Part shown: positions 31,836 through 51,207 of the stretch, one piece after another
Numbering within the stretch: the first letter of the stretch is position 1
How the letters are laid out: every line of letters starts with the position of its first letter
Source: Jaminaea rosea
Taxonomy: Eukaryota > Basidiomycota > Exobasidiomycetes > Microstromatales
NCBI RefSeq assembly: GCF_003144245.1
Contig: NW_020289975.1
Span: 1,631,496 to 1,695,495 of the forward strand
DNA: 64,000 nt
Direction of reading: 5' to 3'
Program-made: the position numbers and the translations under genes
Notes under the pieces: model-generated
Seen by the model: only the letters and a program-made list of their open reading frames with translations
What the model was told of the DNA's origin: nothing
The model's database searches: none

Positions 31836-32128
31836 GGTGGGTGTTGGTTGGGCGGCGATGGGGCGAGGCTGATGATGTCGAGGGGCCGGACATGCGCTCA
31901 GCGAGCGAGCCGGCCTGCTCGTGTTGCTCAGTCGTCAGTCGCAGTCCGTGCTCGACTGACTGCCCCAAACGGCCGCGGCTCGACTTTTGTCGCTGCTCGA
32001 GAGGGCCGCCTCGAAGATTTTGGCCGACGCCTCGTCAGTCCGTCGAAGCAGCCTTGGCCACCAATTCGCTCCTCTCACTTCAACAATCCTCCATCGTTCA
32101 CAGAGCCTGTCTCGTCCCGCTCGCTCTG
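31836..32128. promoter_or_regulatory. bidirectional promoter between UGO1 and MDN1
   Basis: 293 bp between start codons. The plus-strand frame of MDN1 is open across it but has no supported coding content, and that open frame runs on antisense into UGO1 exon 1. Confidence 0.5.
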
Positions 32129-35100
32129 ATGGACATCACCTTTCAGCAACAGCCGTCAGCGCTGCGGCTTGATCTGGCTGCGAGCTCGGCCGCTCTGCTC
32201 GAAAGCATCGCGAGCTCACACGCCTCTAATGGTTTGCCCACCGAGGTCAAGACGCTCCTCGAGCAATGGGCAGCTGGACAGAGCACCAGCGAGGCCAATC
32301 CATCTCACCTTCTTCAGAGCCTCTCACGAGTCCTCGCCATCCCATCGCTGACTCATCTCGTTGCAGCTCACTTTGCGCCGCTCCTTGTCGACATCGCTGC
32401 GCGCCTTCTTCCATCCAATGACACCTCGGCCTCATGGCTCGACCAGCATACACGACAAATCTTTCACTCCCTCGCTCTTCTACTGCTACCATTCCCGCAG
32501 CTTCTGCCACTAGTGCGCCATTTCCTAAGACACGAAGCGCTACGAGCGCAGCCCCTCCATCAAACCATCACGTCAACGCTGCGCCAGGATGCGCCACAGC
32601 TGCTCCTCTCGTTCGTCCGCCTCCTTCATGCGGCGCCTCCTCTCGCCGACGTTCTGAGCGAACAGCTGCCAAACGCATTCTTGCATTCCGTCTTTTCTGG
32701 TAGAGACGATTACGATCATTCGACAAGATTACTCGCTGTTCAAGCCCTCGCAGGGCTCACCTCGATCTCAGAGGCGCAGCGCAAGGAGCTCGAGACTAGA
32801 TTCGTGGGAAGGCCTGCACTGCCAAAGCTATCCGACGACGGCAAAGCACTTCTTGGCTACGCTCTTGAGCCAGAGACGGACGAGGTTGACGCTTCTCTAG
32901 TAGGAGCAGAGAATGAGATCGTCGACGTCTGGATCCTTCCAGTACTGGAGAAGAGGAGAAAAATTGGCGTCAAGGCGTTGGCCAGAGGGCCAACACCATA
33001 CTACGAAAGCTCGATAGGCCTCGTCACGTCTCATCATCTTCATCACTCTGTGAGAGACATTGCGGGCGTACTTCATTTTCAACCAGACCGGGCGCAGCGC
33101 CCGCCTTCATCGCAGCGCTTCGTTGTAACTCCTGGCCAGGAGCCAACAATCAATTGCATCGCGCAAGCCCTCGAGCAAAGCTTGCCTGTTCTAATCACGG
33201 GTCCGCCATCATCAGGAAAGACCTCCCTCGTCTCACACCTCTGCTCGCTTCTACATCCAGCAGCCGGCAAGTCGGCGGACCTTCCCGTCGTGACGCTGCA
33301 GCTGGGAGACCATTCGTCACTCGACGCCAAGTCACTTCTGGGCAGTTACACCTCATCGTCTCGCAAACCTGGTACCTTCGAGTGGGTAGAGGGCGCCCTC
33401 ACGCGAGCTGTGCGATATGGGAAATGGCTCGTCCTCAAGGACATCGACAAGGCGACGAGCGAGGTGCTCAGCGTCATCAAGCCCCTCGTTGAGGCTCTCG
33501 GCCCCTACAAGACCCTCGGAGCAACACCAGAGCTCTCGCTCGGGCCGAGAGGCAAGGTCAAGGCTGGATCGTCCTTCCGCCTCTTTGCCCTTCGTTCTAC
33601 TACACCGTCGAAGAATCGTCTCGGACGATCTTTGTTCCCTCCGCCTTCTTTCCTCGGCAATAAGCATTGGATCTCTCTCTTCTTGCCGTCTCTGGAGACG
33701 TCGGACGTGCACGAGATACTCGCAGGGACCTTCGTAAAGCTGGCAGCAATCGCTGATGGCGAGGCCTTGAGCACCCTCATCGAAGCATGGACGTCGGTAG
33801 TCCGAACAGCGAGCGGCAGTGGTGGCCAGTCAAAGGGGCGCTCAGCCGCCACACGTGTCCCTACGTTGCGAGACCTGATCAAGTGGTGCCGCCGAGTCGA
33901 AGCTTTTGCAGACCCGACCAGCAGTAGCCACGCTCTCTTCTCCGATCAGCGCAAGGTTGAGCGCGCTTTCGTTGAGGGAGCTGAGATCTTCTTGGGCAAC
34001 TTGCAGTCTCTCGTCATCACAACCTCTACCGGAGTGGCTTCACCTCACCCTTGCCTGGCTGCGCTGGCGTCGGCGCTCGGCCTGGATGCAGAGCGGGGAT
34101 TGTGGCTGCTTAACGAGAAGACACCAGACGTTGCAATTAGGGGTGGCTTGGCATTCAGTGAGAGCGATCAAGCTACAGTGAGAGTCGGTCGTATGGACCT
34201 GTCCAGGCGCAAAATAAGCTCGCATGCGTCAGTCTCTCGCACGTTCGCCATGACGCGACCAGCCGCTCAGCTCCTCGAGCGCATCGCAGCTAGCGTCGCC
34301 ATGAAGGAGCCTGTGCTTCTGGTGGGCGAAACAGGTACAGGAAAGACGACTACAGTGCAGCACCTTGCATCTTTGCTTGGTCGCGATATGATCGCGCTCA
34401 ATCTCTCGCAGCAGACTGAGGCGTCCGACCTTCTCGGGTCCTTCAAGCCTGTAGAGCCTCGTATCCCTGCGACCGAGTTGCATAATGCGTGGTTCGACCT
34501 CTTCGAGACAACCTTCTCCTCGAAGAGAAATGCGCGATTTGTTGAGACAGAGCGCAAGGCGCTGCAAGGGGGCAAGTGGCCTCGCCTGGTCACACTGTGG
34601 AAAGAGAGCATTCGCATGGCTGAAGAGCGAAAGGATCGCAAGAGCAAGCTCGTAGCATCAAGCGAGGGCGCAGAGGCAGCTGCGGCTGGGACAACGACGA
34701 CCAAGAAGAGAAGGACAGAGCGTGGACCGACCCCTGGTACACCGTCTGAAGACCAAGAGCATCAACGGGAAGCAGTGCTCAACGCGTCGTGGGCTTCGTT
34801 CGCCGAGCGAGTCCACGATTTTGCCGCTCAACACGCCTCGAAGCGCCGCAACTTCGTCTTCTCCTTCGATGAAGGTCCACTAGTCAAAGCCCTGCGCGAG
34901 GGATCATGGGTCCTTCTCGACGAGATCAACCTGGCAGCCTCAGAGACGCTCGACTCTCTTGCAAGCGTACTCAACTCGCCCGACAGCAGTGTGACCCTCT
35001 TCGAGCGAGGCGACATTGAGCCCATCCCACGTCACCCTGACTTCCGGCTTTTCGCCTGCATGAACCCGGCGACGGATGTAGGCAAAAAGGATCTGCCTGT

Positions 35101-38100
35101 CAACCTGCGTAGCCGCTTTACTGAGCTCTATGTACAGAGCCCGGACAGTGATCGCGAGGCTCTCATTGCGATCGTCGAGAAGTACATCGGCCACCTCGCT
35201 GCTAGCGATCGTTCGGCGGTCATGGATGCCGCGGAGTGCTACACGGAAATCAGGAAGCTGGCCAATGATCACCAGCTTGCCGATGGTGCCAATCAACGCC
35301 CGCACTACTCCATTCGTACTCTTGCTCGATCTCTCACTTTCGCTGCGGACCAGTGCGCTGCCTTCGGCCTGCGACGAGCGCTCTGGGAGGGCTTTGTCAT
35401 GGCTTTTACGATGCTACTCGACGACAAGAGTGCAAAGGTCGTCAAGGAAATTCTCGACCGATCCTTCATCGGAAGAGCTCGCAACGCTAAGCAAGCGGCC
35501 ACCTTCGTGCCGCCTCGTCCCAAAGGTTCTGCAGAGTATGTGCATGTCAGCCCCTTCTGGCTTCAGACTGGATCGCAACCCCTCGAAGCTGCTGAAGACT
35601 ACATTTTGACGCCATCCGTTCAGGCCAAGCTGGTCGGTCTCGCTCGAGCCATTCTAGCCCGCAAGAGTCCCGTCCTGATCCAAGGTCCAACTTCCGCAGG
35701 TAAGACCAGCTCAGTCGAGTACCTTGCCAGACGCACGGGACATCGCTTCGTCCGCATCAACAACCACGAGCACACGGACATCCAAGAGTACCTTGGTTCC
35801 TATGCGTCTGACCCAGACAGCGGCCGCCTCGTCTTCCACGAAGGCCTCCTAGTCAAAGCCCTCCGCCGCGGCGACTGGATTGTGCTCGACGAGCTCAATC
35901 TCGCACCTACAGACGTATTGGAAGCGCTGAATCGCCTGCTAGACGACAATCGCGAGCTCATCATCCCAGAGACCGGAGAAGTCGTACGCCCACACCCGAG
36001 CTTCATGCTCTTTGCCACACAGAATCCGCCAGGTGTGTACGCTGGGCGCAAGGTGCTCAGTCGAGCCTTCCGAAACCGCTTTCTCGAGCTGCACTTCGAT
36101 GACGTGCCTCGCCCTGAGCTGGAGACCATCCTTACCAATCGCTGCTCAATCCCGCCGAGCTACGCGTCAAAAGTGGTATCGGTGTTCGTGGAGCTGCAGA
36201 CTCGCCGGCAAGCGGGTCGAGTTTTCGATACCAAGCAGGCCTTCGTGACGCTGCGAGACCTGTTCAGATGGGGACAGCGTGAGGCCACGGGATATCAGCA
36301 GCTGGCTGAGAATGGGTACATGCTCATTGCAGAACGAGCTAGACGAAGCGATGATAAGGCGATTGTCAAGGAGGTCATCGAGGGCATCATGAATGTCAAG
36401 ATCGATGAGGCTAGCCTGTACAATCTCAAGGGCAAAGGTAGGAAGGCAGCGTCGGATCACATTGGCGCAGATGTCGTTGAGGCCATCGTCTCTGCGTGCG
36501 ACGAGAGTGGAATCGTTTGGACAGCGGCCATGTCACGCTTGCTTTGCCTGGTCGCTCTGGCACTCAAGTACAATGAGCCAGTCCTTCTCGTAGGCGAGAC
36601 CGGTGCTGGCAAGACGTCAGCATGCGAGATCGTCGCCAAGGCCTTTGGGCATCGCCTGCATAGCGTCAGCTGCCACCAGAATACCGACACTGCGGACCTC
36701 CTCGGCGGACAACGTCCTCTGCGCAATCGCGGTGCGCTTCAGGCTCAAGCTCGAGCTCAAGGGCTGGAGGTTCTCGCAGAGCTGGCAGACGCCGACAACA
36801 TGCCGGCCGATGACAGCGATCTCGAGACGGTAGCTATCGCCGTATCCAAGGCGGCGCAGCGTACCTCCGATGAAATCGTCAAGCAGCGCCTCGCCTCCGC
36901 CATCCAGCAAATCAACCAAGCCAGCGCCCTCTTCGAATGGCGAGACGGCCCCCTCGTCGAAGCTATGCGAGGCGGAGAGCATCTCCTACTCGACGAAATC
37001 TCCCTCGCCGAGGACAGCGTTCTCGAACGCCTGAATAGTGTCTTGGAGCCTGGTCGCACCCTTGTCCTCGCTGAGAAGAGCTCGGTTTCGACCAAGAGCA
37101 GCGAAGGCCTCGATGCGGCGCAGATCACGGCAGCGGACGGCTTTGAGGTCGTCGCGACGATGAATCCCGGCGGAGACTACGGCAAGAAGGAACTGAGCCC
37201 CGCGTTGCGCAATCGTTTCACTGAGATTTGGGTGCCGCAGGTGGACGATCGTGAAGATATCCTGGCCATCTTTGAGGCTAAGTGGGCGGATCAAGCGGAG
37301 GCGCTGCGTGACTGGGGCCGCCGTATTCTTGAATTTGCCGACTGGTATGCAAGCCAGGTGGGCGGCAAGGAGCAGGCTGGGATCGGCCTTCGAGACTTGC
37401 TTGCTTGGGTTGCATTCATCCGTAATGCGGTCGTTTCCGGCTCGCTGGACGCATCCACAGCTTACGCCCATGGCGCGATGCTTGCCTTCGTCGACGGGGT
37501 TGGCACCACGTCCTCGACTATGGCGATGACGACCACAGGACTCAAAGTACTTCGCCAGCACTGCTTGGAGCAAATCCGCTCCTGGACAGGTGGCGTCTCC
37601 CCAATCGCAGAGCCGGTCCTCGCTGCTACGCCCACGACATTCGGCATCGGCCCTTTCCACATCGCACGAGGGCCCCTTATGGACACGTCAGCGACTTTCA
37701 GCTTCGAAGCGTCCACGTCAGCCTCGAATGCGCTCAAAGTGCTCCGCGCCCTCCATATCCCGAACAAGGCCATTCTCCTCGAGGGCAGCCCTGGCGCAGG
37801 CAAGACTTCACTCATCGGCGCCCTTGCCGCAGCCTCAGGCAATGCTCTCACCCGCATCAATCTGTCCGATCAGACCGAGCTGGGCGATCTCTTTGGTGCT
37901 GACCTGCCCGTTGAAGGGGGCGGGCCAGGCGAGTTTGCATGGAAGGATGCCGCTTTCCTCCGAGCGATGCAGAGTGGCGAGTGGGTGCTGCTCGACGAGA
38001 TGAATTTGGCCAGCCAGTCTGTACTCGAAGGGCTCAACTCTTGCCTTGACCATCGCGGGTCCGTATACATCCCTGAGCTGGGCCGTGCCTTTGACAAGCA

Positions 38101-41100
38101 CCCGGACTTTCGACTCTTCGCAGCACAGAACCCTCACCAGCAAGGAGGGGGGAGAAAAGGACTGCCTAAGTCCTTCCTCAATCGCTTCACCAAGGTCTTC
38201 GTCGAGGAGCTGCGCGCTGATGACATTCTGGCTATCTGCAAGCACCTCTACCCTACTTTTGCGCACGAGGAGCTCGTGAAGATGATCCGCTTCAATGCCG
38301 AGCTGCACAACGAGGTGATGGTCAAGCACTCCTTTGGGCGTCAGGGAGCGCCGTGGGAGTTCAACTTGCGAGATCTGCTTCGTTGGCTGGCTATGATTCA
38401 CTCAGATCTGGGCCTCAACTGGACTCACCAGCCTATCGACCACCTCGCTGCTCTCTACATTCAACGTTTCCGCTCAAAGAGCGATCGTCAAGCAGCAGCA
38501 GCCCTCTATGAGAGCATCTTCGGCACGAAGGTTAACCCAGATGCCCGTCCATGGCCGACGCTGTCATCTCGCCACGTCCAATTCGGTCACGCTCTGTTGC
38601 CGCGCCATCCCACGGGAAGCACGAGCGACATCGATCTCGCCGTGTTGCCCGGCCATCTACCCGCTCTCGAAGCTCTCGCAGATTGTGTTCGCCTGCAGTG
38701 GATGTCGATCCTCGTTGGCTCGAGCGCGTGTGGGAAGACTAGCCTCGTCCGCATGCTAGCCTCATTTGTGGGCGCTCCTCTCGAGGAAGTCCGAATGAAC
38801 AGCGGCGTCGATACGATGGATGTGCTTGGCACCTTCGAGCAGATGGACCCGCATGGCAAGACACGGCAGCATCTGCAAGCTGCCAAGAGGCTTGTTGGAG
38901 AGCTAAAGGTCGGCGCGCTTCGGCGTCTCGGAGCCGTCTACGAGCAGCTGGCCGTTGCCGAGGATGCAATTCAGCAGGGACTATCGGCTCTCACAGGAGA
39001 CCGATGGGCTGACCAGCATCTTCAAGCTGTCCTCAAATCGCTCAGCGCTATCAGCAGCTCCAACGCGCTCTCGTCTGAGCAGTCTCAAGCCTTTGTCATG
39101 CTGCACGATGCCCTTGCTTCCAGTGACCCTACCCACCAGAGCGCTGCCGGGCGTTTCGAGTGGAACGACGGCCCGCTGCTTCGAGCGATGAAGAATGGCT
39201 CGTGGCTGCTGCTGGACGACGCCAATCTTTGCTCTGCTTCAGTGCTCGACCGACTCAACTCGCTCTTCGAGCCAGGAGGAGCCCTTGTGCTAAGCGAACG
39301 TGGTGTGGTTGACGGCGAGATCCCCGTCGTTCGACCTCACGCCAACTTCAGGCTTTTCATGGCCATTGACCCGCAGCATGGCGAACTCAGTCGTGCGATG
39401 CGCAATAGAGGACTGGAGATTTCGCTGCCGCCTCTTCCAACGCAGGATGCTGCTCTTCTCAGCGGTCTTAACGCCTTCTCGTCGACCGGAGCTGCGCCCG
39501 TGCTTTCGTCGCGTTATGATACGGATCTAGCGATGGGTGAGCTCATCCTGTACAGCTCGGCAGAGTACAGCGACGTGTTTGAGAAATTTGCCTTTGCCAC
39601 TCTACCCTCCAAGTCGGTCGGTCTCTTCTCACGCCTGGCTACTGCTACCTCTCAAGACGACATTGTCCAGCTGCAGACCTTTCTGCGAAGGGTTGGCGTC
39701 GATCACGCAGCTACGCGTCCAAGAGTAGAGTGGAATCAGGCCCACCAAGACCTCGAGGCTTTCGTCGCCCAGCAGTCGCTCGATCTCGGCGTGAACCCCA
39801 ACTGCTGGGACGACAAGCTCGAAAGGATGCCCCTCTTTAGGCTAGGGCTCGACGTCGCCGCCTCTGCTCTTCATCTGCTACGACTGCTTCACGCAGCTCG
39901 CAAAGCGGCTGATTCTACGTCGGTAACATCAGGACGATCCGTTCTCGAGCGCTACGCCATGCTCGCCCTCTCTGACAAGCGGACGAAGAGTCATGACGGC
40001 GACGACGGTCGAGAGATTGGACAGATCCTCGCATTTGCTGGGCATGCTCAGAAACTCACAAGCCAGCTCGTCTTCAGCAATGAGGCAACGCCCGAACTCC
40101 TCGAAACGCTGCGAGAGATGGTTCGCCTGCTTTACTTTCTCGTCAACAGCTTTTCGCAGCAAACAGCATTCGACCACTCGACGGCGCATATTGTCATGGG
40201 CCAGGTACAAGAGTACGCGGGTAGCCTAGCAGCTCTACTGCCTACAGCAGCAAGCTCATGGCCTTCGATGGGCCATCGCTCCGCCAACCTCTCGTCGGGT
40301 CATGCTATGAGAGAGATATGGGAGCTCAGCATGCCTGCCCTTGCCTTTGCGGAGGCAGCTCAAGGCTCCTCGCTCCTTCACGTGCTTCTCTCCAAGGTGC
40401 AGCGCAGCGAACACAATGCCGAGCTCGTCTCGTCTGCGGTGGACCTCGCAGCGACAGTGCGCTTGTCAGGCAACGAATCGTGGACTGCATCACAGAAGTC
40501 GGACGTGCTCGCCATGATTGATCGAGTAAATCGGCAATTGCAAGCTCAGCCGATGCTAGCAAGAGGCACAACTGTGACATCATCGTGGGAGGTGCCGCTT
40601 CTTTCTGCCATCCAGTTGCATTCCGGAACATTTGCCGGCACGGTCAGCGACCAGTCCGTCTGCACAGAGCTCTACAAGCACAGCCTCACACAAGCAGCCT
40701 ACCCCGTGCGTTGTGCGATTGCCGCCCGAGCTCTCGACTGGAGCATGCAAGCATCATCAGGAAGAGTCGCTGCGGCATCGCTCGAGGACAGCTTTCTGTG
40801 GACAGCGCCGCTCCTCTCGCAGTCGCACGTCGACGAGTTGCTTCAGCCATTCCTGCTCCATATGGCGCTCTTCCCTTCAACCAGGTCTCGAATCAACATG
40901 AGTCACCTGGCCCGGCATCGCAAGACCACGGCCAAGATGGGTCGACTGGTCATGGCTTCTCGCGCGACGACGACCTCAACTCGTCATCGAGCTTTACGTG
41001 TTGAGCTCATCGCCTTCGTCAAACTACTTGCCACCAAGCTTGGCTCATCCGCTCACGATGAGGTCTGCGCTGCCGTGCCACAGCTGCAAGGCGCTCTCGA

Positions 41101-44100
41101 CGCCCTGAGCGGCGCCTCTGAGGACGACGTAGCCGCCACTGGACAAGCTTACCTGGACGTTGCCTCGGAGATGCTGAGACTCTACGTGCCCAATGTGCCG
41201 CTGGATCCGTTGGCTCTGATGCGTACCGGCGAGTCGTTGGCTCGATCCAAGCTCGACGGCCTGGTGGAGCACGAAGTCATCTGGACCAACTTCGAGAAGC
41301 AAGTCACCGGCCACATATCGAGTCCCATGGCAACGTCAATCCAAGAGGCGGTCAAGAAGACTACAGAAGAATGGCGCTCAACACAGAGCAAGACGGCCGT
41401 CGATCGTCGACCCGACGCGACTCGCCTCGCCCAGCTTTTCCGCACCGTAGCGTCGGTCGTCTCGCAGACGATATCGAAGGACAGGGTCTCGGATCTTCGC
41501 AACTTGATCGCCGCAGGAGGGCTGCAAGACCAAGTCATCGCGCGGGAAGACCATCTCCAGCGCTCGCTGCAAAGCCTCCGTCGCGCACTCGTCGAAGAGT
41601 ACACGGACCTTGCTGACCTCTGCTCGCCCATCGTCAAGATCGTCGACCTCTTTCAGGTCGGCTTCCGTGCCTTGCTCTGGAGCGAGCAACACCGTCATGC
41701 GCCTGCAAAGCAGCAGCGCCACGCCAAGCTCGTCGATGCACTCGTCGCCTTCCCTACGACGCGCGCTTGTGAAGCCTTTTTGGCATCCGAGCTGCCCGTC
41801 AGAGTCAAAGCTGGATCGAGTGAGGGCTCACTGGCAGTGCCGATGCTCTTGACCGTTCTTTCCAGTGTTAGCTGCGAAGTTCAAAATGGAAGGACGCTCC
41901 CCGCAGTACTCAAGATTCTCAGCCGCACATACGACCAGCTCTTCTTCATCTGGACAACTGACCGCGAGCACGAGCGCAAAGCAGCTGAAGAGCAGAGCAG
42001 CCTCTTCAAATCGCGCAACAATGTTGACGCTGATATTCCTGACGATGAGGAGCTGCTCGAAGCCGAGTTCAGGAGCATGTTTCCAGAGTACGGCGACATC
42101 ATGGATCGCGATGAGCAGAACGCCGCAGACCAAGGATCAGCGTCAGGATCAAAAGGGCTCTTCTTTGCCCCAGAATATCAAAAGCAGCTTTGGGAGCTTC
42201 ACTGCGAGCTCTTCGCGGCCACTCAGCAGGAGGGCCGTCTCGACTCAACCGCACTCAATCGCATGCGACTTCAACTGGCACGCAGCTTGATGACCTCTTC
42301 TTACGGCAGTGCAATGTGCGAGGACCTCGACAAGAAGAGTGGTGCCTTCCAGCTGCACGTCTTGGCTCGCGAAGCCGGTCTTGACGACGGCAGCAGCCAC
42401 CGCAATGCAGCCGAAGTCAACTTCTACCTGGATGCCAACGTAGACGAGACAAGCAAGGCGACGAATATCGTGGAGGCCATGCGCGCACGACTCAGTGAAC
42501 TCGTTGAGGAATGGCCGGAGCAGATGGTGCTGCAGCACATTCGCGACCGCTGCGACGCCATTCTTGCCCTCGACTCGGCCAGCCCCGTAGCCAAGGTGCT
42601 CTCTGCGCTCGAACAGCTCCTCGTCCACTCGCAGGACTGGGAAGGCTACGCCAATTCATCGAACTCACTCGCTGCTCATCGCACTCGAATCTCAGATCAG
42701 ATCATCGCCTGGCGTCGCTTGGAGCTCTCCAGCTGGGCCAAGTTGCTCGAAACGCAAGCGCAAGACTACAAGGCGTCGGTCAGCATCTGGTGGTTCCGTA
42801 TCTACGAGGTCGCCGTTCGAGGCATGCAGTCAGCTGTCGCAGATGGCGCTGCTGCGGAGCACCTTCGCTCCCTCGTCTCACTCCTCGATGAGTTCGTGAG
42901 ATCGAGCACGCTCGGAGACTTTGCCGCTCGTCTGGACCTCGTCAGAGCGTTTGGCGGGTTCCTCGATCTACTCTTCGTTCATGCACCGAGCACAGAGACA
43001 GAAGGTCTTGACAGAGTTGGGCGCATCTTCGCGAACGTAGTCGCCTTCTACGGACAATTCAGCGCTACCATTGCCGAGACGCTAGACCGACAGCGCAACA
43101 AGATCGAGAAGGATATACGCGACTTCATCAAGCTCGCGAGCTGGAAGGACGTCAACATCCACGCGCTCAAGCAGAGCGCCCAGAAGTCCCACCGACGCTT
43201 GCACAAGTCAACACGCCAATTTCGTGACGTACTGCGCCAGCCCGTCGACCCTATCCTGGCCGGAGCTTCTGAAATCAGAAAGCAGGCGGAGGATCTTACT
43301 GTGCCAGCTCAACGAAGTCTCTCGCACGGCGTCTTTGACGTGTCAATGGTCAGCAAGACACTTGCCCAGCTGCCCGCGGGACCACAAGGCGATGCAGAGC
43401 GACCTCGGCATCTTGTTAATCTTGCTCGCACTCTCGAGATTTTGGCCAAGAAGACGGATGGGCACCTGCTCCCGGCACTGTCTGCCGTTCATCACGAAGC
43501 CATCGACGGCCTCGCAACGGTCATCGTTTCTGAGTCGCAGAACTTCGCCAAGGCGACGCCGGCTCTTGCGAAGGAGGATAACGAGAAGACGATCAAGGAC
43601 TTGACGAACCAGAAGCGCAAGGCTTGGACCGACTTGCTGAAGGAGCTGCGCCGGATCGGCTTTACGCCCTTTGTCAACGCGGACGTCGCCTCACACAACC
43701 AAGATCTTGCGGCTGTCTACGAGCGACGTCTCCTCGAGCCGGCCGAGAAAGACTTGAATAGCTACTACTACCGCCTACTGGCCCTTCTGCCCCGCATGAG
43801 GCAGTCATTGCACACTGCGAATGGCGACATTCCCATCCAAGAGCTGCAGCGAGGTGTCTCATATTGCGAGCACGCCATGAGTATCGTCTTCAAGGAGCGA
43901 GCGCGTCTTGCCAAGCTCCACGACTCTCGAGCTAAGCTGCAAGCCACGGTCGCTAGACTCTCAGTGCTTGGTTCAGACGCCGTCGCTGTGCCATGTCCGG
44001 CTCACCTTTCAGCCCACGTCGATGCCTTGGGAGCTCTGTCGAGGCGGGCGTCTGCTGCGCTCCGTGAGATCCATTGCGAATCGGCGGTCAACATTCAGCT

Positions 44101-47100
44101 CTCGCCCTTCAAGATGGCAGGCCTGCAAAGCTTCCGAGACGGACTGGCCGACGAGATGAGCCTGCTCTCGAGTAACGCAGATAAGCTCGCCAAGCTGTCA
44201 TGCGCTTTGAACGGCTCGTGCAGCGCCTTCTGGACAAAGGCGGAGCATGAGCTTGTCAAGCAGTCATTCAGCGACCTCGAGCGCATCGCAGGGAAGCTCG
44301 AAAGGGCAGAGGCTGCCGTCAAGGCCCTTTGCGTGCCAACGAGCCAGTGGCTTACCTCACAGCTCGCTGCTTTGCCAGCGACGTCCTCTCACCAGCCTCA
44401 AAGCAATGGCGCCGGCGGCGACCCAGCATCCCTCAGCGACCGCCTCATTGGCTCTGTCTTAGTGATTGCTCAGGATGTACAGCAGCTTGCTACTCCTGCC
44501 ACCGAGCAGGGCGATCATTTGCCCGACAAGACGATCGTGGAAGATTGGCAGATGCTTCAGGCCGCTGAGCGCCAACTTCGTCACGATGAGGTCGCCGACT
44601 GCATTGCGGGCTGCCTTTCCTCCATCGCGACATCGCCTGGCTCCTCTGGCCTCAACGAGCTTCCTCGCATCTCTCCTTTCGTCGCCAACTACAGTCGGCT
44701 CCTTTCAGCCCACATCGACGCCTCTCGCTCATGGCAGCGTAGCATACTCAAGCTCACCTACCTGCTTTCATCGCTCGTCGCTTCGCTCGCTCTCTATGGC
44801 TTCTGCAAGCCGCCGGCTCAAGACACTTCAGAGGATGCTGAGGCGGGGACTGATAGCCAGGACCTCGAAGGTGGCACAGGGCTCGGCGATGGAAGTGGCG
44901 CCCAAGACATCACTGATCAAGTGGATGACGATGAGAACATTGAAGAGCTGGAAAAGGGCGATGATGCTGAGGGCGAGAAGGGCGAGACACAAAGGGAGAA
45001 GGGCGCCAAGGAGGCTCAAGAAGACATCGGTGGCGACCTTGAGGACATTAGCGCTGATGAAGGCGATGATGGCGCCGAGGAGGAAGACAAGGACGACGGC
45101 GAGCAGGAAGATCCTGATGAGCACGTCGGCGACGTTGATCCACTGGACCCGAATGCAGTCGACGAGAAAGTCTGGAGCGGAGAGCAGGACGAAGAGCAGA
45201 AGCAGGGCGATGACAAGGATGAGACGAACAAGGACCTCGATGGCGGCAAGGAAGGGCAAGAAGATTCGGTCGCCAAGGACGAGGGCAAGCGGGATGACAA
45301 AGCGCAGAAAGAGTCGGCATCGGATCGCAAAGAAGGCGGCGAGCAGCAACAGGATGGTGAGGATAGTGAGGGTGAAGAGGGCGACGAGGGGCAGCCAGAG
45401 GATGATGGAGAGGGCGAAGAGCTGGCTCCCGAGGAAGATGACGGTCAAGAGCAACAAGGTCCCGGTCGCAAGCTTGATGAACAGGTCGATGACAGCGAGA
45501 AGCTTGACATTGATGAGGACATCAAGATGTCAGACCAGGAAGGTGGTGACGACGATGAGGACGACGATGAAGTGGACAATCTCAGCGACATCGACCTGCC
45601 AGAGGAGGGGCAGCAGCAGGATGCCAAGGGGGGGCAGGAAGATGACCTACCTGCGGATGCTCCTGAAGAGCTTGAGAAGCTGAATGATCAGGGCGAGCAG
45701 CAGCAGCAGGGCGATGAGGCCGCTGATGAGGAAGCAGAAGTAGCCAAGAACGCCGGAGAAGACGCGATGGATGCGGACGATTTGCAAGACGAGGAAGGGG
45801 AGGAGCAAGACGATCTCCCTCGAGCTCAAGGCCAAGACGGTGCTGCGATGGATCAAGAGCAAGACGCGATGCTCGACGACGCAGATCCAGCAGGTGACAG
45901 CCAAGCTGCGGGCGACATACCTGCCTCTGCCGAGCAAGCGCAAGGCTCTGCTGGCCAGCAAGGTCGTCAAGCTAGGCAGTCGCGACCAACAGCGCCGCAA
46001 GGGCAGTCTGACAACAAAGAGGCCGCCGAGCGAGATGAGCAGCAGACTGGCGACCAGGAGCAAGCGGTCGATGATCCCTCAGCCAGCGCTGCTCGCGGTG
46101 CACGGGCTGACACGCAGGCTCAAGACGAGCAGCAGACGGCCGCCGAAGAGGGTGCCGAAGAGGAAGACAACAAGGCTAACCCGATTCGCAGCCTTGGCGA
46201 CGCCCTCAAAGAGTTCCGGCGCAACCTCGACTCCATCGCAGAGGCTACTGCTGATGAGACGTCGAAGCCAGAAGCCAAACCCGAGGGTGAAGCAATGCCT
46301 GAAGACGGCGAAGTCGAGCACATTGCCAACGATAATGATGCAGAGATGCAAGCTCTAGGCGCCGCCGAAGACGAGGAGATTGCTCAGAAGATGCCCGAGA
46401 AGTCGGTGCAGGATGCCGAGCAAGAGGGAGACGCGAAACCAGCTGCACAAGAGGAAGACGTGGCAATGCAGGAGCCTCTTGGTCATCTTGAGCCAGCACC
46501 GCTGCCTAATGTGGACGAGGGTATGCAACAGCAACAGGAGCAGAGCAGGTCGGACGATTCTCAGCGACAGCAGCAGCCTGGCGGTGCTCTCATGCCCAAT
46601 GACATCGACAGACAAGCACGTCAGCTCGGCGTTGACGAGGAGCGTGAGTCGTCTCCTTCTATTGGACAAGTCGACGGAGAGGCCGAAGAGGAGCAGGTCG
46701 ACCCTCTGCCTGAAGATGAGCGCCAACAAGCGGACGAAGCTCTCGAATCCGCCCTTGCCGACTTCCGTGACCTCTCAACCGACGAGGAGCGTCTAGCGAA
46801 AGCCGGCGAGCTCTGGCGCTCCTACACGGCCATGACTTCAGACCTTGCGTTCGCCCTTTGCGAGCAACTCAGGCTCATCCTCACACCCACACTGGCCGCT
46901 CGACTGAATGGCGACTTCCGAACGGGCAAGCGTCTCAACATGCGCAAGATCGTACCCTTCATCGCGTCAGACTTCGCAAAGGACAAGATCTGGCTCAGGA
47001 GGACGAAGCCGTCGAAGCGCGAGTACCAAGTGTTGCTTGCGCTGGACGACAGTCGCAGTATGGCCGATAATCACAGTGTGCACTTGGCCTACCAGACTCT

Positions 47101-47716
47101 CGCCCTCGTAACCGGGGCGCTGAGCCGTCTCGAGGTGGGAGATGTCAGTATCTGCCGCTTTGGCGAGTCGGTCCGTACGCTTCATCCTTTCGGACATGGG
47201 CAATTCGGCGAAGACAGCGGCTCTTCAGTCTTGCAACAGCTCTCCTTTGAGCAGAGAGGGACCAATGTCGCTCGGCTGCTGGAGCATACGCTCGAATCGC
47301 TTCAAGAAGCGCGGGACTCTCGCGGCACCTCGAGTGGCAGCTCAGCTGCTGATCTCTGGCAGCTCGAGATCATCATTTCAGACGGAGTGTGCCAAGATCA
47401 TGAGAAACTGCGCTCCTTGCTTCGTCGTGCTAGCGAGCAGCGAGTCATGATCGTCTTCATCATCGTCGACTCAATGCGCGGGGGCGGTGACCAGCAGGGC
47501 AAGTCATCCTCGTCAGCATCCTCTTCGATCTTGTCCATGTCCTCGGTCAAGTACGAGGTCGATCCAGCTACAGGCAAGATGGAGATCAAGATGGATCGCT
47601 ACCTCGATTCGTTCCCTTTCAGCTACTACGTCGTGCTTAGGGAAGCAGAGGCCTTGCCTGAGGTCCTAGCTACAACTCTGAGGCAGTGGGCGGAGAAGAT
47701 AAGGGAGGCGGAGTGA
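32129..47716 (+). CDS. MDN1: midasin, giant AAA+ ATPase of 60S ribosome assembly
   Basis: One uninterrupted exon of 15,588 bp, 5195 residues (yeast Mdn1/Rea1 4910). The start is the ATG at 32129 (MDITFQQQPSALRLDL). Six P-loops are visible: GPPSSGKT (about residue 354), GETGTGKT (732), GPTSAGKT (1185), GETGAGKT (1487), GSPGAGKT (1884) and GSSACGKT (2194). Matching Walker B sites are WVLLDEINLA, WIVLDELNLA, HLLLDEISLA and WVLLDEMNLA; AAA1 (LVLKDIDKA) and AAA6 (LLLDDANLC) are degenerate. A long helical linker follows, then a Glu/Asp/Gln-rich flexible arm (about 4230-4870) and a C-terminal MIDAS domain with LALDDSRSMADNHS (about 4970). Midasin pulls Ytm1 and Rsa4 off pre-60S particles in nucleolus and nucleoplasm; its MIDAS grips their UBL domains. 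It is head-to-head with UGO1. Confidence 0.98.
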   Translation: MDITFQQQPSALRLDLAASSAALLESIASSHASNGLPTEVKTLLEQWAAGQSTSEANPSHLLQSLSRVLAIPSLTHLVAAHFAPLLVDIAARLLPSNDTSASWLDQHTRQIFHSLALLLLPFPQLLPLVRHFLRHEALRAQPLHQTITSTLRQDAPQLLLSFVRLLHAAPPLADVLSEQLPNAFLHSVFSGRDDYDHSTRLLAVQALAGLTSISEAQRKELETRFVGRPALPKLSDDGKALLGYALEPETDEVDASLVGAENEIVDVWILPVLEKRRKIGVKALARGPTPYYESSIGLVTSHHLHHSVRDIAGVLHFQPDRAQRPPSSQRFVVTPGQEPTINCIAQALEQSLPVLITGPPSSGKTSLVSHLCSLLHPAAGKSADLPVVTLQLGDHSSLDAKSLLGSYTSSSRKPGTFEWVEGALTRAVRYGKWLVLKDIDKATSEVLSVIKPLVEALGPYKTLGATPELSLGPRGKVKAGSSFRLFALRSTTPSKNRLGRSLFPPPSFLGNKHWISLFLPSLETSDVHEILAGTFVKLAAIADGEALSTLIEAWTSVVRTASGSGGQSKGRSAATRVPTLRDLIKWCRRVEAFADPTSSSHALFSDQRKVERAFVEGAEIFLGNLQSLVITTSTGVASPHPCLAALASALGLDAERGLWLLNEKTPDVAIRGGLAFSESDQATVRVGRMDLSRRKISSHASVSRTFAMTRPAAQLLERIAASVAMKEPVLLVGETGTGKTTTVQHLASLLGRDMIALNLSQQTEASDLLGSFKPVEPRIPATELHNAWFDLFETTFSSKRNARFVETERKALQGGKWPRLVTLWKESIRMAEERKDRKSKLVASSEGAEAAAAGTTTTKKRRTERGPTPGTPSEDQEHQREAVLNASWASFAERVHDFAAQHASKRRNFVFSFDEGPLVKALREGSWVLLDEINLAASETLDSLASVLNSPDSSVTLFERGDIEPIPRHPDFRLFACMNPATDVGKKDLPVNLRSRFTELYVQSPDSDREALIAIVEKYIGHLAASDRSAVMDAAECYTEIRKLANDHQLADGANQRPHYSIRTLARSLTFAADQCAAFGLRRALWEGFVMAFTMLLDDKSAKVVKEILDRSFIGRARNAKQAATFVPPRPKGSAEYVHVSPFWLQTGSQPLEAAEDYILTPSVQAKLVGLARAILARKSPVLIQGPTSAGKTSSVEYLARRTGHRFVRINNHEHTDIQEYLGSYASDPDSGRLVFHEGLLVKALRRGDWIVLDELNLAPTDVLEALNRLLDDNRELIIPETGEVVRPHPSFMLFATQNPPGVYAGRKVLSRAFRNRFLELHFDDVPRPELETILTNRCSIPPSYASKVVSVFVELQTRRQAGRVFDTKQAFVTLRDLFRWGQREATGYQQLAENGYMLIAERARRSDDKAIVKEVIEGIMNVKIDEASLYNLKGKGRKAASDHIGADVVEAIVSACDESGIVWTAAMSRLLCLVALALKYNEPVLLVGETGAGKTSACEIVAKAFGHRLHSVSCHQNTDTADLLGGQRPLRNRGALQAQARAQGLEVLAELADADNMPADDSDLETVAIAVSKAAQRTSDEIVKQRLASAIQQINQASALFEWRDGPLVEAMRGGEHLLLDEISLAEDSVLERLNSVLEPGRTLVLAEKSSVSTKSSEGLDAAQITAADGFEVVATMNPGGDYGKKELSPALRNRFTEIWVPQVDDREDILAIFEAKWADQAEALRDWGRRILEFADWYASQVGGKEQAGIGLRDLLAWVAFIRNAVVSGSLDASTAYAHGAMLAFVDGVGTTSSTMAMTTTGLKVLRQHCLEQIRSWTGGVSPIAEPVLAATPTTFGIGPFHIARGPLMDTSATFSFEASTSASNALKVLRALHIPNKAILLEGSPGAGKTSLIGALAAASGNALTRINLSDQTELGDLFGADLPVEGGGPGEFAWKDAAFLRAMQSGEWVLLDEMNLASQSVLEGLNSCLDHRGSVYIPELGRAFDKHPDFRLFAAQNPHQQGGGRKGLPKSFLNRFTKVFVEELRADDILAICKHLYPTFAHEELVKMIRFNAELHNEVMVKHSFGRQGAPWEFNLRDLLRWLAMIHSDLGLNWTHQPIDHLAALYIQRFRSKSDRQAAAALYESIFGTKVNPDARPWPTLSSRHVQFGHALLPRHPTGSTSDIDLAVLPGHLPALEALADCVRLQWMSILVGSSACGKTSLVRMLASFVGAPLEEVRMNSGVDTMDVLGTFEQMDPHGKTRQHLQAAKRLVGELKVGALRRLGAVYEQLAVAEDAIQQGLSALTGDRWADQHLQAVLKSLSAISSSNALSSEQSQAFVMLHDALASSDPTHQSAAGRFEWNDGPLLRAMKNGSWLLLDDANLCSASVLDRLNSLFEPGGALVLSERGVVDGEIPVVRPHANFRLFMAIDPQHGELSRAMRNRGLEISLPPLPTQDAALLSGLNAFSSTGAAPVLSSRYDTDLAMGELILYSSAEYSDVFEKFAFATLPSKSVGLFSRLATATSQDDIVQLQTFLRRVGVDHAATRPRVEWNQAHQDLEAFVAQQSLDLGVNPNCWDDKLERMPLFRLGLDVAASALHLLRLLHAARKAADSTSVTSGRSVLERYAMLALSDKRTKSHDGDDGREIGQILAFAGHAQKLTSQLVFSNEATPELLETLREMVRLLYFLVNSFSQQTAFDHSTAHIVMGQVQEYAGSLAALLPTAASSWPSMGHRSANLSSGHAMREIWELSMPALAFAEAAQGSSLLHVLLSKVQRSEHNAELVSSAVDLAATVRLSGNESWTASQKSDVLAMIDRVNRQLQAQPMLARGTTVTSSWEVPLLSAIQLHSGTFAGTVSDQSVCTELYKHSLTQAAYPVRCAIAARALDWSMQASSGRVAAASLEDSFLWTAPLLSQSHVDELLQPFLLHMALFPSTRSRINMSHLARHRKTTAKMGRLVMASRATTTSTRHRALRVELIAFVKLLATKLGSSAHDEVCAAVPQLQGALDALSGASEDDVAATGQAYLDVASEMLRLYVPNVPLDPLALMRTGESLARSKLDGLVEHEVIWTNFEKQVTGHISSPMATSIQEAVKKTTEEWRSTQSKTAVDRRPDATRLAQLFRTVASVVSQTISKDRVSDLRNLIAAGGLQDQVIAREDHLQRSLQSLRRALVEEYTDLADLCSPIVKIVDLFQVGFRALLWSEQHRHAPAKQQRHAKLVDALVAFPTTRACEAFLASELPVRVKAGSSEGSLAVPMLLTVLSSVSCEVQNGRTLPAVLKILSRTYDQLFFIWTTDREHERKAAEEQSSLFKSRNNVDADIPDDEELLEAEFRSMFPEYGDIMDRDEQNAADQGSASGSKGLFFAPEYQKQLWELHCELFAATQQEGRLDSTALNRMRLQLARSLMTSSYGSAMCEDLDKKSGAFQLHVLAREAGLDDGSSHRNAAEVNFYLDANVDETSKATNIVEAMRARLSELVEEWPEQMVLQHIRDRCDAILALDSASPVAKVLSALEQLLVHSQDWEGYANSSNSLAAHRTRISDQIIAWRRLELSSWAKLLETQAQDYKASVSIWWFRIYEVAVRGMQSAVADGAAAEHLRSLVSLLDEFVRSSTLGDFAARLDLVRAFGGFLDLLFVHAPSTETEGLDRVGRIFANVVAFYGQFSATIAETLDRQRNKIEKDIRDFIKLASWKDVNIHALKQSAQKSHRRLHKSTRQFRDVLRQPVDPILAGASEIRKQAEDLTVPAQRSLSHGVFDVSMVSKTLAQLPAGPQGDAERPRHLVNLARTLEILAKKTDGHLLPALSAVHHEAIDGLATVIVSESQNFAKATPALAKEDNEKTIKDLTNQKRKAWTDLLKELRRIGFTPFVNADVASHNQDLAAVYERRLLEPAEKDLNSYYYRLLALLPRMRQSLHTANGDIPIQELQRGVSYCEHAMSIVFKERARLAKLHDSRAKLQATVARLSVLGSDAVAVPCPAHLSAHVDALGALSRRASAALREIHCESAVNIQLSPFKMAGLQSFRDGLADEMSLLSSNADKLAKLSCALNGSCSAFWTKAEHELVKQSFSDLERIAGKLERAEAAVKALCVPTSQWLTSQLAALPATSSHQPQSNGAGGDPASLSDRLIGSVLVIAQDVQQLATPATEQGDHLPDKTIVEDWQMLQAAERQLRHDEVADCIAGCLSSIATSPGSSGLNELPRISPFVANYSRLLSAHIDASRSWQRSILKLTYLLSSLVASLALYGFCKPPAQDTSEDAEAGTDSQDLEGGTGLGDGSGAQDITDQVDDDENIEELEKGDDAEGEKGETQREKGAKEAQEDIGGDLEDISADEGDDGAEEEDKDDGEQEDPDEHVGDVDPLDPNAVDEKVWSGEQDEEQKQGDDKDETNKDLDGGKEGQEDSVAKDEGKRDDKAQKESASDRKEGGEQQQDGEDSEGEEGDEGQPEDDGEGEELAPEEDDGQEQQGPGRKLDEQVDDSEKLDIDEDIKMSDQEGGDDDEDDDEVDNLSDIDLPEEGQQQDAKGGQEDDLPADAPEELEKLNDQGEQQQQGDEAADEEAEVAKNAGEDAMDADDLQDEEGEEQDDLPRAQGQDGAAMDQEQDAMLDDADPAGDSQAAGDIPASAEQAQGSAGQQGRQARQSRPTAPQGQSDNKEAAERDEQQTGDQEQAVDDPSASAARGARADTQAQDEQQTAAEEGAEEEDNKANPIRSLGDALKEFRRNLDSIAEATADETSKPEAKPEGEAMPEDGEVEHIANDNDAEMQALGAAEDEEIAQKMPEKSVQDAEQEGDAKPAAQEEDVAMQEPLGHLEPAPLPNVDEGMQQQQEQSRSDDSQRQQQPGGALMPNDIDRQARQLGVDEERESSPSIGQVDGEAEEEQVDPLPEDERQQADEALESALADFRDLSTDEERLAKAGELWRSYTAMTSDLAFALCEQLRLILTPTLAARLNGDFRTGKRLNMRKIVPFIASDFAKDKIWLRRTKPSKREYQVLLALDDSRSMADNHSVHLAYQTLALVTGALSRLEVGDVSICRFGESVRTLHPFGHGQFGEDSGSSVLQQLSFEQRGTNVARLLEHTLESLQEARDSRGTSSGSSAADLWQLEIIISDGVCQDHEKLRSLLRRASEQRVMIVFIIVDSMRGGGDQQGKSSSSASSSILSMSSVKYEVDPATGKMEIKMDRYLDSFPFSYYVVLREAEALPEVLATTLRQWAEKIREAE

Positions 47717-48051
47717 CGCTTTGTTGATATGTAGAGGTTGATTGTGGTCGCATATGATGTAAGAGCAAGCAAGCATGAATCGATTAGAAGACACGTTTAG
47801 CATCATGACCTCGACTGGACTGGACGCCTTTCGCAGCTGAGTCCATGGCCCGTGCATTCGGCCGAGGGAATTGAGCTCGTCGTCGGTCCTGGATCAACTT
47901 CTTCCCGGGCCCTTGCCGGTCGGCGTGTCCACCACTTTGTGGCCTGAACTGTGTAGCCGTCTTTCCTTCTCAATCAACACACTATTCAACACTAAACGAC
48001 GCCCGCTCCAACGTAGGTCAGCAAGGCGACACAAAGCACGAACCTATTCTC
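47717..48051 (+). promoter_or_regulatory. intergenic region MDN1 to RidA gene
   Basis: 335 bp holding the MDN1 3' UTR and the promoter/leader of the RidA gene. No gene is visible. Confidence 0.45.
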
Positions 48052-48721
48052 ATGCTCACTCTTCGATCCACTACTGCCCTCCGCACCCTTTCCTCTTGCC
48101 GCCTCGCCATCCCACTTGCACCTCGTCCTCTCCCCCGCCGTAGCTTCACCACAACAATTGCCAGCATGTCCGCCCCTTACAAGTCCATTTCGACCGACCA
48201 GGCTCCCAGCGCCATCGGCCCTTACTGCCAGGCCACGGTCCACAACGGCACCATCTACTGCTCGGGCAACATCCCCTTTGACCCCAAGACGATGCAGACC
48301 GTCGAGGGCGGCGTTGAGGCTCAGACTCAGCAAGGTGGGTGACAGGCCAGACATGAGGGTGATGAACGTCTTCTCTCGATAGCTGACTCGACGCTCGTCC
48401 TCTTTGCGTCGCTGCTGCAGCCATGACCAACCTCCTCAACGTCATCCAGGCCGCTGGAGGCGACAAGTCTACTATCCTCAAGACGACCGTCTTTATCAAG
48501 GACATGAACGACTTTGCCAAAATCAACGCTGTCTACGAGAAGGTGAGAGCTCCGATTATGTGACGAGTGCCGTGTGCATGCGCTCACTCGTTGCGTCCCT
48601 ACGTTCCCACGCTGCAAAGAACCTGGCCCCCTACAAGCCCGCCCGCTCCGCTGTCGAGGTCGCTCGTCTTCCCAAGGACGTCCTCGTCGAGGTTGAGTGC
48701 ATTGCCACCGTCAAGGCTTAG
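48052..48721 (+). CDS. MMF1: mitochondrial RidA/YjgF-family enamine deaminase
   Basis: Exons 48052-48334, 48421-48542 and 48620-48721 give 168 residues. A presequence (MLTLRSTTALRTLSSCRLA to RRSFTTTIA) precedes the RidA core: YKSISTDQAPSAIGPYCQAT, IYCSGNIPFDPKTM, NLLNVIQAAGG, ILKTTVFIKDMNDFAKIN, KPARSAVEVARLPKDVLVE and VECIATVKA. The arginine of KPARSAV matches the one that holds the 2-imino acid carboxylate. RidA proteins hydrolyse reactive enamines/imines made by PLP enzymes; yeast Mmf1 does this in mitochondria and supports isoleucine synthesis and mtDNA upkeep. An internal ATG at 48165 (MSAPYKSIS) could give a cytosolic form without the presequence, as the separate Hmf1 does in yeast. The last splice site (GCAAAG|AAC) is weaker than the others. 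Confidence 0.92.
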
Positions 48722-48928: not shown

Positions 48929-51207
48929 ATGTCTTCGAGTCCTTACAAAGTTGCCCGCGAGCTCATAGATGCAGCGCATCGCAAAGACCCAGCCTACCTT
49001 GCTCGCTCGACGCATGCTCAGGGTGCGGCCGAAGACTCTTCGTCATCAAGTGATGCCGACGAGTATGCAGAGACGCACCAAGACGAGCTCAGCTATGCAG
49101 ATGGCGTCGAGGCGTGGGCTATGAAACTTCTAGACAGTGATCCTCAGACCTCAAATCATTTGAAGTCCCTGAGCTCAGAAGGGGGACTCGAGCTCGTCCG
49201 CCTTGCTGCACGCTGTCAACATTTGGAACGCTTTCTCACACCTCGCTCTACTTTCCCAGAGGGCAAGGCCGGCTACCTGAAATGGCGAAGGAGCCTCTAC
49301 CACATCCAAGCGGATCGGGCCAAAGAGTTACTGGCTGAAGCTGGAGTCTCGAGCGATGAGCAGGAGCTTGTGAGGAAGTGGGTAAGCAAGACGGACCTCA
49401 AGGTTGGATCCGCGGCCGCCGGGAGCAAAGGATCGGACCCAGGCACGCAGTTGCTCGAGGACGCGGCCGTTCTCGTCTTTCTTCAGGATCAATTGGCTGG
49501 CTTCGCTCAACAACACAGCGACTATACAAAGGACAAGGTTGTGAGCATTCTTGCAAAGTGAGTCAGGGCGCAGCGCATCGAATGGGTCTAATCTACATTG
49601 GCTGACACTCCTCCTGCTCCTCTCGCCCCTTGCAAGGACCTGGAAGAAGCTCTCGCCCAACGCCAAAGAAAAGGCAAAGGGACTACCCATGAACGAACCA
49701 CTGAAAGGCATCGTAGCAGAGGCAGTTGCCCAGGTAGAGGAGAAGGAGGCGGCAAAAGTAGCAGCAGAGATGTCCGACCAACAAGCAGAGTGAGCAGACT
49801 GGAGAAACAGCCTTGTGAGCACCCTTGGCCCCCCTTCGTCCTTTCCTGCTGCGACGAGTCAGTGCCAAGGTAGTGTGCAGCATTGGCTGACCATTCGATC
49901 TCCTCGCCTATAGCTCGACCTCTGCTGCCACTTCATCTTCATCTCCACCAGAGGCATCAAAAGCAAACTCTTCCTCTGGTCCTTACCAGCTACGCCCCAA
50001 GACAGCCGCCGAAGCAGAAGCGCTCCTCCTCGCCGCCCAGCAAGCGCGACGCAACCTCAACAATGACGACGAAGACGATCTCGCACCTCAAGAAGGTCCC
50101 TTCGGCTCACGTCTCCTGCGGAGCGGCGACAACTACCTCACCCACAACGCCTGGGACCATGTCTCCCCTCCTCCCGAATACCAACAGACAATCGACACCC
50201 TCCTAGCCGCCCAGCGCGAAACACGCATCGATGAAGACGAAGCAGCCACAAAATACCACGCAGACGCCGCTTCCCATTGGGATCGATTCTACTCCTTTAA
50301 CGAGCACAAGTTCTTCAAAGATCGAGCATGGCTACATCTCGAATTCCCGGAGTTGGTCGACTTGACTCGAAGTAGGGCAGGGAAGAAGAGGGTGTTTGAG
50401 ATTGGGTGCGGAGCAGGCAATACCATCTTCCCATTGTTGGGGAGAAACGAGAATGAGGAGCTCGAGGTGTACGCGTGCGATTATAGTAGGGAAGCGGTTC
50501 AGGTTGTCAAGGCGAATGCGATGTACAAGACGATGAACCCAGAGGAGGACGCCGTGGCGGGCGATGGACAAGGAGAAGAAGCGCTGGCCGCCGCTTCACC
50601 GCCAGCAGTGGCCAACGATGACAAAGAAGCCGACACCTCCACCATCACCCCCGTCACCCGACCTAAAGGTCACTGCCACGCCTTCGTCTGGGACCTCTCG
50701 TCTCCCTCGGGCGTCCCTTCCGACTCAGGCATTACCCCGGGCACCCTGGATGTAGTTGTCCTCATCTTCGTCCTCTCCGCCCTCCACCCCCGCGAATGGA
50801 GCCAAGCGCTGCAAAATGTCCACTCCCTCCTTAAGCCTGGAGGGCTGCTCCTCTTCAGGGACTATGGGAGGCACGATCTCCCCCAGTTGAGGTTCCGGAA
50901 GGGGAGGATGTTGGATGAGAACTTCTATGTGAGGGGAGATGGGACGAGGGTGTACTTCTTTACGCCGGAGGAGTTGCTCGAGATCTTCAGGGCGTCGGAC
51001 CCGCCACAGGGTCGATTGCAAGCCCAAGAGGAGAAGGACAAAGCTGCATCGACGACAACAATGGAGTCCGCGGCGGGAGACCAAGCCTCTCAGCCGCACC
51101 TCTTCCGCACTCTCCAGCTCGCAGAGGACAGGCGTATGCTCGTCAATCGCAAGGAGAAGAAGCAAATGTACAGGCGATGGATGCAGGCTAAGTTTCAGAA
51201 ATTGTAG
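48929..51207 (+). CDS. TRM140: DUF4202 domain fused by splicing to METTL2/Trm140 tRNA m3C methyltransferase
   Basis: Exons 48929-49557, 49637-49789 and 49914-51207 are in one frame and give 691 residues. Residues about 5-230 match DUF4202: KVARELIDAAHRKDP, RLAARCQHLERFLTPRSTFP, KAGYLKWRRSLYHIQAD, LEDAAVLVFLQDQLAGFA and KTWKKLSPNAKEKA. Exon 3 encodes a METTL2/Trm140-type enzyme that makes 3-methylcytidine at tRNA position 32: FGSRLLRSGDNYLTHNAWDH, HWDRFYSFNEHKFFKDRAWL, SAM motif VFEIGCGAGNTIFPLL (about 420), FVWDLSS, LIFVLSALHP, LLFRDYGRHDLPQLRF and NFYVRGDGTRVYFFTPEEL. The methyltransferase frame has no ATG in exon 3 before its SAM motif, so its start must come from exon 1 or 2 (48929, or internal ATGs such as 49770). 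If the second intron is kept, translation stops at 49791 and yields a 261-residue DUF4202 protein. Two overlapping genes are the alternative reading. Confidence 0.75.
49788..49913 (+). promoter_or_regulatory. intron whose splicing decides between stop and fusion
   Basis: Exon 2 ends GCA GA and the intron runs 49790-49913 (GTGAGC...CGCCTATAG, 124 bp), with a branch-like GGCTGACC near its end. Retention reads GCA GAG TGA, a stop within two codons. Removal joins GA|C and continues in frame into the methyltransferase. The splice site therefore acts as a switch between two products. Confidence 0.6.

Follow-up and report, generated by a model that had tools for sequence, protein, structure and literature searches.

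Does a single spliced gene in the 64 kb stretch of DNA analysed here (the window) code for both a DUF4202 domain and a tRNA m3C methyltransferase, and if so, what kind of event joined the two? Three exons on the forward strand, at 48929-49557, 49637-49789 and 49914-51207, give one open frame of 691 residues in the splice model, with the introns removed, and the frame ends at a TAG stop codon at 51205-51207. The reading frame of this DUF4202-methyltransferase fusion gene is solid. We consider it quite probable that the locus is a single three-exon gene whose two-domain product arose by ordinary gene fusion and is bifunctional or co-regulated, rather than the output of a regulated switch. To judge from the sequence, it appears to be a real but ordinary fusion with an unusual partner.

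Exon structure and the intron 2 junction

Exon 1 (48929-49557) opens with an ATG that has an A at position -3 and, according to the splice model and the Pfam match, codes for most of the DUF4202 domain (48953-49715, residues 9-236). This domain is split by intron 1 and completed by its removal. Intron 1 (49558-49636; 79 nt, phase 2, GTGAGT...CTGAC...CAAG) has the A of its CTGAC branch site 31 nt before exon 2 and a second CTRAY motif 45 nt before the intron end. Exon 2 (49637-49789, 153 nt) codes for the end of DUF4202 and the start of a linker. From either of its two in-frame ATGs, at 49689 and 49770, the reading frame runs on into exon 3 without a stop, and skipping of the whole exon (from the donor at 49558, with a loss of 153 nt) keeps the frame. 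Intron 2 (49790-49913; 124 nt, phase 2, GTGAGC...CTGAC...TATAG) provides the junction that makes the fusion, with its branch-site A 23 nt before exon 3. The 9-mer TTGGCTGAC is found at the branch site of both introns and is otherwise absent from the forward strand of the window.

Exon 3 (49914-51207) comprises a low-complexity linker followed by a whole m3C32-type methyltransferase domain (50098-51204, residues 323-691). The initial annotation had pointed out that this exon has no ATG ahead of its SAM-binding motif, and the first in-frame Met, at 50521, does lie downstream of that motif (FEIGCG, 50395). Its claim that splicing yields an uninterrupted 691-residue DUF4202-Trm140/METTL2-like fusion was equally borne out, as no stop is left in the frame when 49558-49636 and 49790-49913 are removed.

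We listed the AG dinucleotides from 49880 to where the conserved enzyme begins, at PFGSRLL (50098), and only one of these 16, the acceptor at 49913, has a CTRAY site within the preceding 45 nt. That this acceptor fits the donor at 49790 alone, as had been proposed, holds for introns of up to 200 nt, for which 49790 is the sole consensus donor. It does not hold if long introns are allowed, in which case the 1.5 kb upstream offers seven consensus donors that join the acceptor in frame with an upstream ATG. When 49713-50097 was dinucleotide-shuffled 4000 times, a consensus intron with an open in-frame join arose in 20 cases; of about 4000 random segments of equal length from the window, 30 had the same kind of join. 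The intron 2 junction thus exceeds chance expectation.

Codon preference, trained on nine long frames elsewhere in the window, agreed with the frames of all three exons; it was positive per codon in the exon frames of exon 2 (+0.35) and of the exon-3 linker (+0.26), as well as in the tail of exon 2 past the DUF4202 domain (+0.30). Continuing the exon-2 frame through intron 2 gave a slightly negative value (-0.08 per codon). Counting against the model, a second frame of the exon-3 linker gave +0.09, and the final seven codons' worth of intron 2, read in the exon-3 frame, scored +0.42, though this stretch is too short to weigh.

The two domains of the predicted protein

The match to DUF4202 (PF13875) scores 171 bits against a cut-off of 35.1 (E 2.6e-50) and covers positions 3-183 of the 183-position profile. 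An alignment of 25 DUF4202 rows, window protein included, contains 15 invariant columns; the bacterial proteins have the same invariant residues as the window protein. Identity to the latter is 54-61% for all but one of the 15 Verrucomicrobiota rows, 49% for that one and 36-40% for the other nine rows. AlphaFold gave confident, all-helical models both of a full-length bacterial relative, L015 (61% identical, pLDDT 95.7), and of the window exon 1 (pLDDT 87.6). In a Foldseek search with L015, the top 22 matches look HD-type, yet the best E value is 0.044 and the query TM scores are 0.41-0.57; going by their labels, these matches are presumably members of the HD superfamily, and the one at rank 18 is titled so. 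Comparison of DUF4202 with 11 HD groups by hhalign gave probabilities below 2% throughout, in what is a weak comparison, with rows L037, L042, L043, L045 and L050 on the wrong strand. A profile search of the PDB with DUF4202 returned no credible relative among its eight matches up to E 10 (best 0.09), and no NCBIfam family matched three DUF4202 proteins. An HD-like fold for DUF4202 is best described as likely but unproven.

The nearest solved relative of residues 323-691 is METTL6 (E 2e-44 to its chains), with a class I methyltransferase core; the identity amounts to 66 of 135 residues over two aligned blocks. The available text of PMC8373065 and PMC11479938 describes FFKDR and WD.FY as N-terminal motifs of m3C32 enzymes, and both are kept in the window enzyme, as FFKDRAW at residue 394 and as WDRFY in the METTL6 alignment. 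According to the accessible part of PMC11479938, F32 and R51 of METTL6 contact SerRS, H195 and R199 are among those that bind the A37 modification, and of these A37-binding residues R199 and R259 alone are conserved across the m3C32 family. The window enzyme is like human METTL6 and S. pombe Trm141 in its nearest solved structure and in keeping FFKDR and R199. Unlike METTL6, it has E370 and F389 at the SerRS-contact positions F32 and R51, which are thus not kept, and Leu in place of H195; the two aligned blocks do not extend to T248 and R259. About 40 residues (323-361) precede the METTL6-like block and look like part of the enzyme, and we take their PFGSRLL...NAWDHV to resemble METTL2. In its type, in these preceding residues and in the absence of the METTL6 SerRS contacts, the window enzyme is like human METTL2A/METTL2B and S. 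pombe Trm140. Since F32 and R51 are not kept and residues 323-361 are additional, it appears to fit the tRNA-Thr-acting Trm140/METTL2 type better than the SerRS-dependent METTL6/Trm141 type. Its predicted activity would be methylation of C32, most likely of tRNA-Thr. An NCBIfam search with the methyltransferase gave matches that were all below their cut-offs.

DUF4202 in bacteria and the origin of the fungal domain

DUF4202 is patchily distributed in bacteria. It scored above the cut-off in 52 of 387 Verrucomicrobiota, 33 of 398 Pseudomonadota and 12 of 396 Actinomycetota genomes and in none of 14 control genomes. DUF4202-like stretches were present in 23 of 72,556 plasmid records, and the viral contigs held no relative of DUF4202 or of the methyltransferase. 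In a tree of 91 rows, the window DUF4202 falls in a clade of 30 rows (support 100/100), of which the other 29 are 15 named Verrucomicrobiota and 14 further genomes drawn from that phylum; where named, these clade mates are largely Opitutaceae. Kinship of the window DUF4202 with a Verrucomicrobiota group is thus supported by sequence comparison. Grouping of the 29 rows to the exclusion of the window and of 29 other rows was not rejected in a test on 59 of the 91 rows (p 0.204), so that nesting of the window domain inside Verrucomicrobiota is not established. A bacterial origin of the domain, at no particular date, is plausible.

Our first set of bacterial DUF4202 loci was gathered by means of patterns derived from the window protein, a procedure biased towards near relatives. 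Among 66 further bacterial loci, 62 have open frames shorter than 300 residues and four have frames of 424-450 residues. Two of these four, L082 (450 residues) and L103 (444 residues), both in the Pseudomonadota sample, are fusions of DUF4202 to CbiX, which we take to be a sirohydrochlorin chelatase-like domain; the other two, L105 and L107, have no second Pfam domain. No fusion of DUF4202 to a methyltransferase was found among the bacterial DUF4202 loci examined, which differ in this respect from the window gene. In another genome of the Pseudomonadota sample (G456), DUF4202 is followed by a CbiX match at a distance of about 400 nt. In four of the nine actinobacterial tree rows, DUF4202 is immediately preceded by a sulfite/nitrite reductase gene on the same strand (L020:4169-5830, L024:4046-5845, L112:2049-3524 and L113:2-1477).

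In the 45 DUF4202-bearing genomes of Pseudomonadota and Actinomycetota, whose positions were compared by eye, twice, CbiX or NIR_SIR occurs near DUF4202 in 10 genomes within 15 kb and in seven within 5 kb, where at most 1.34 and 0.45 would be expected; the two radii were chosen after the data had been seen, and some of the genomes are close kin. The 52 Verrucomicrobiota genomes, many of them assemblies in many pieces, gave no CbiX or NIR_SIR within 15 kb of DUF4202. As this phylum is the nearest to the window DUF4202, we regard the sirohaem/sulfite reductase context as a lead for the DUF4202 family at large rather than as a finding on the branch of the window.

The neighbour domains were counted among the 25 commonest families of each scan. 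In the first set (97 of 118 frames, the rest left out by hand), Peptidase_M48 was the commonest among the matches listed, in seven frames, and these matches also include the tRNA synthetase core (3), anticodon-binding (3), RF3 (2) and NIR_SIR (2) families. For the 66 further loci (167 of 183 frames, the rest left out by hand), the matches listed include RtcB (1), NIR_SIR (2) and two glycyl-tRNA synthetase subunit families, once each. The suggestion in the initial annotation that DUF4202 acts with tRNA modification did not gain from these comparisons. The domain is present in bacteria, in whose DUF4202 fusions and some of whose neighbours CbiX and sulfite reductase are found. In the available text of a review (PMC5372738), m3C32 is called eukaryote-specific, and bacterial DUF4202 therefore presumably has another role.

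Competing readings of the locus and its surroundings

In the single-gene reading that we favour, the mRNA would be spliced at both introns, as the open frame and the splice signals suggest. The protein would have an N-terminal DUF4202 domain with an all-helical, HD-like fold and intact family-conserved residues, connected through some 86 linker residues to a complete Trm140/METTL2-like tRNA m3C32 methyltransferase, and DUF4202 may retain a separate activity of its own. Human METTL2 and METTL6, however, are single-domain enzymes, and bacterial DUF4202 proteins end about where the domain part of exon 2 ends. Both observations would agree with two overlapping genes or isoforms, namely an mRNA that keeps intron 2, stops at 49793 and codes for DUF4202 only, and an enzyme mRNA that starts at the ATG at 49770 or 49689, from either of which the frame is open into exon 3, and has intron 2 spliced out. 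We think such an arrangement unlikely, as the exon-2 tail after the domain has the codon preference of coding sequence, and intron 2 is canonical, with a stop that comes automatically with its donor and phase. A wrong gene model would be of another kind, with a distant 5' exon for the methyltransferase or a locus that is an assembly chimera. Six other consensus donors could indeed be joined over 356-1104 nt, but such introns would be far longer than intron 1 (79 nt) and than the two modelled for the adjacent RidA-like gene (about 86 and 77 nt); besides, one of the six donors is upstream of the gene, and the other five sit within the DUF4202 domain or ahead of its end. We find this explanation scarcely credible.

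Retention of intron 2 does lead to a stop, as had been predicted (TGA, 49791-49793), and would leave an intact DUF4202 domain with about 25 extra residues. It could thus be imagined that retention sets how much DUF4202 is made alone and how much as fusion, in the manner of Abp140 frameshifting, but we hold a regulated device of this sort to be very improbable. A stop of this kind comes with any GTGAG donor in this phase and is therefore no sign of a selected end. Introns 1 and 2 have the same phase, and the GTGAG donor of intron 1 likewise creates an immediate TGA (49559-49561), so that retention of intron 1 would truncate DUF4202 in the same way. Moreover, the signals of intron 2 are good, and the CTTAGGC site for a +1 shift is absent from the gene, both spliced and unspliced. 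The idea of a designed switch to DUF4202 alone and that of a second Abp140-like mechanism accordingly found no support; the locus looks like a case of constitutive splicing and ordinary domain fusion.

The likeness to Abp140 is that an m3C32 methyltransferase forms the C-terminal part of a longer protein. In S. cerevisiae Trm140/Abp140, +1 frameshifting attaches the enzyme to an actin-binding N-terminus, as described in the accessible text of PMC5009743 and PMC8373065, whereas the window gene joins it to DUF4202 by splicing. The Trm140 of S. pombe is without the actin-binding part, according to the same portion of PMC8373065. Some m3C32 enzymes use partners for certain tRNAs: METTL6 relies on SerRS for its choice of tRNA (available text of PMC11479938), and METTL2 on a separate protein, DALRD3, for tRNA-Arg (available text of PMC7237682). 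A DUF4202 partner of METTL2 or of S. pombe Trm140 goes unmentioned in the available portions of PMC8373065 and PMC7237682. Our literature search, which covered few subscription journals, found neither the words DUF4202 or PF13875 nor anything on Trm140 together with a basidiomycete; other sources may well list the DUF4202-methyltransferase fusion as a prediction already.

For an m3C32 enzyme, having its partner built in would be out of the ordinary, and it would offer an experimental handle on DUF4202. It might also be imagined that DUF4202, derived from bacteria, serves sirohaem/sulfite-reduction metabolism as an HD-fold enzyme or sensor and that the fusion ties tRNA-Thr methylation to the sulfur (methionine/SAM) state. 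This seems quite improbable to us; if true, tRNA modification would gain a new input and DUF4202 its first function. If, on the other hand, the fusion is only a chance joining of neighbours, it would be of modest interest. For DUF4202, more may be learnt from the bacterial context, with its CbiX fusions and the sulfite reductase genes nearby.

As to the surroundings, no tRNA genes were found in the window with bacterial settings, and Rfam gave no match there at the gathering score. A RidA-like gene (Ribonuc_L-PSP, 47875-48718) lies just upstream on the same strand, with its stop 207 nt before the fusion gene; its two introns were modelled at about 86 and 77 nt, with the donors GTGGGT and GTGAGA. 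Before it, 31748-47716 is a single open frame of 5322 residues, whose first half matches AAA and lid domains of midasin (Mdn1). The other genes of the window, which suggest a fungus, include those for GATA factors, UFD1, TCP-1, an actin-related protein, BOP1, a ubiquitin-activating E1 and a GH18 chitinase-like protein.
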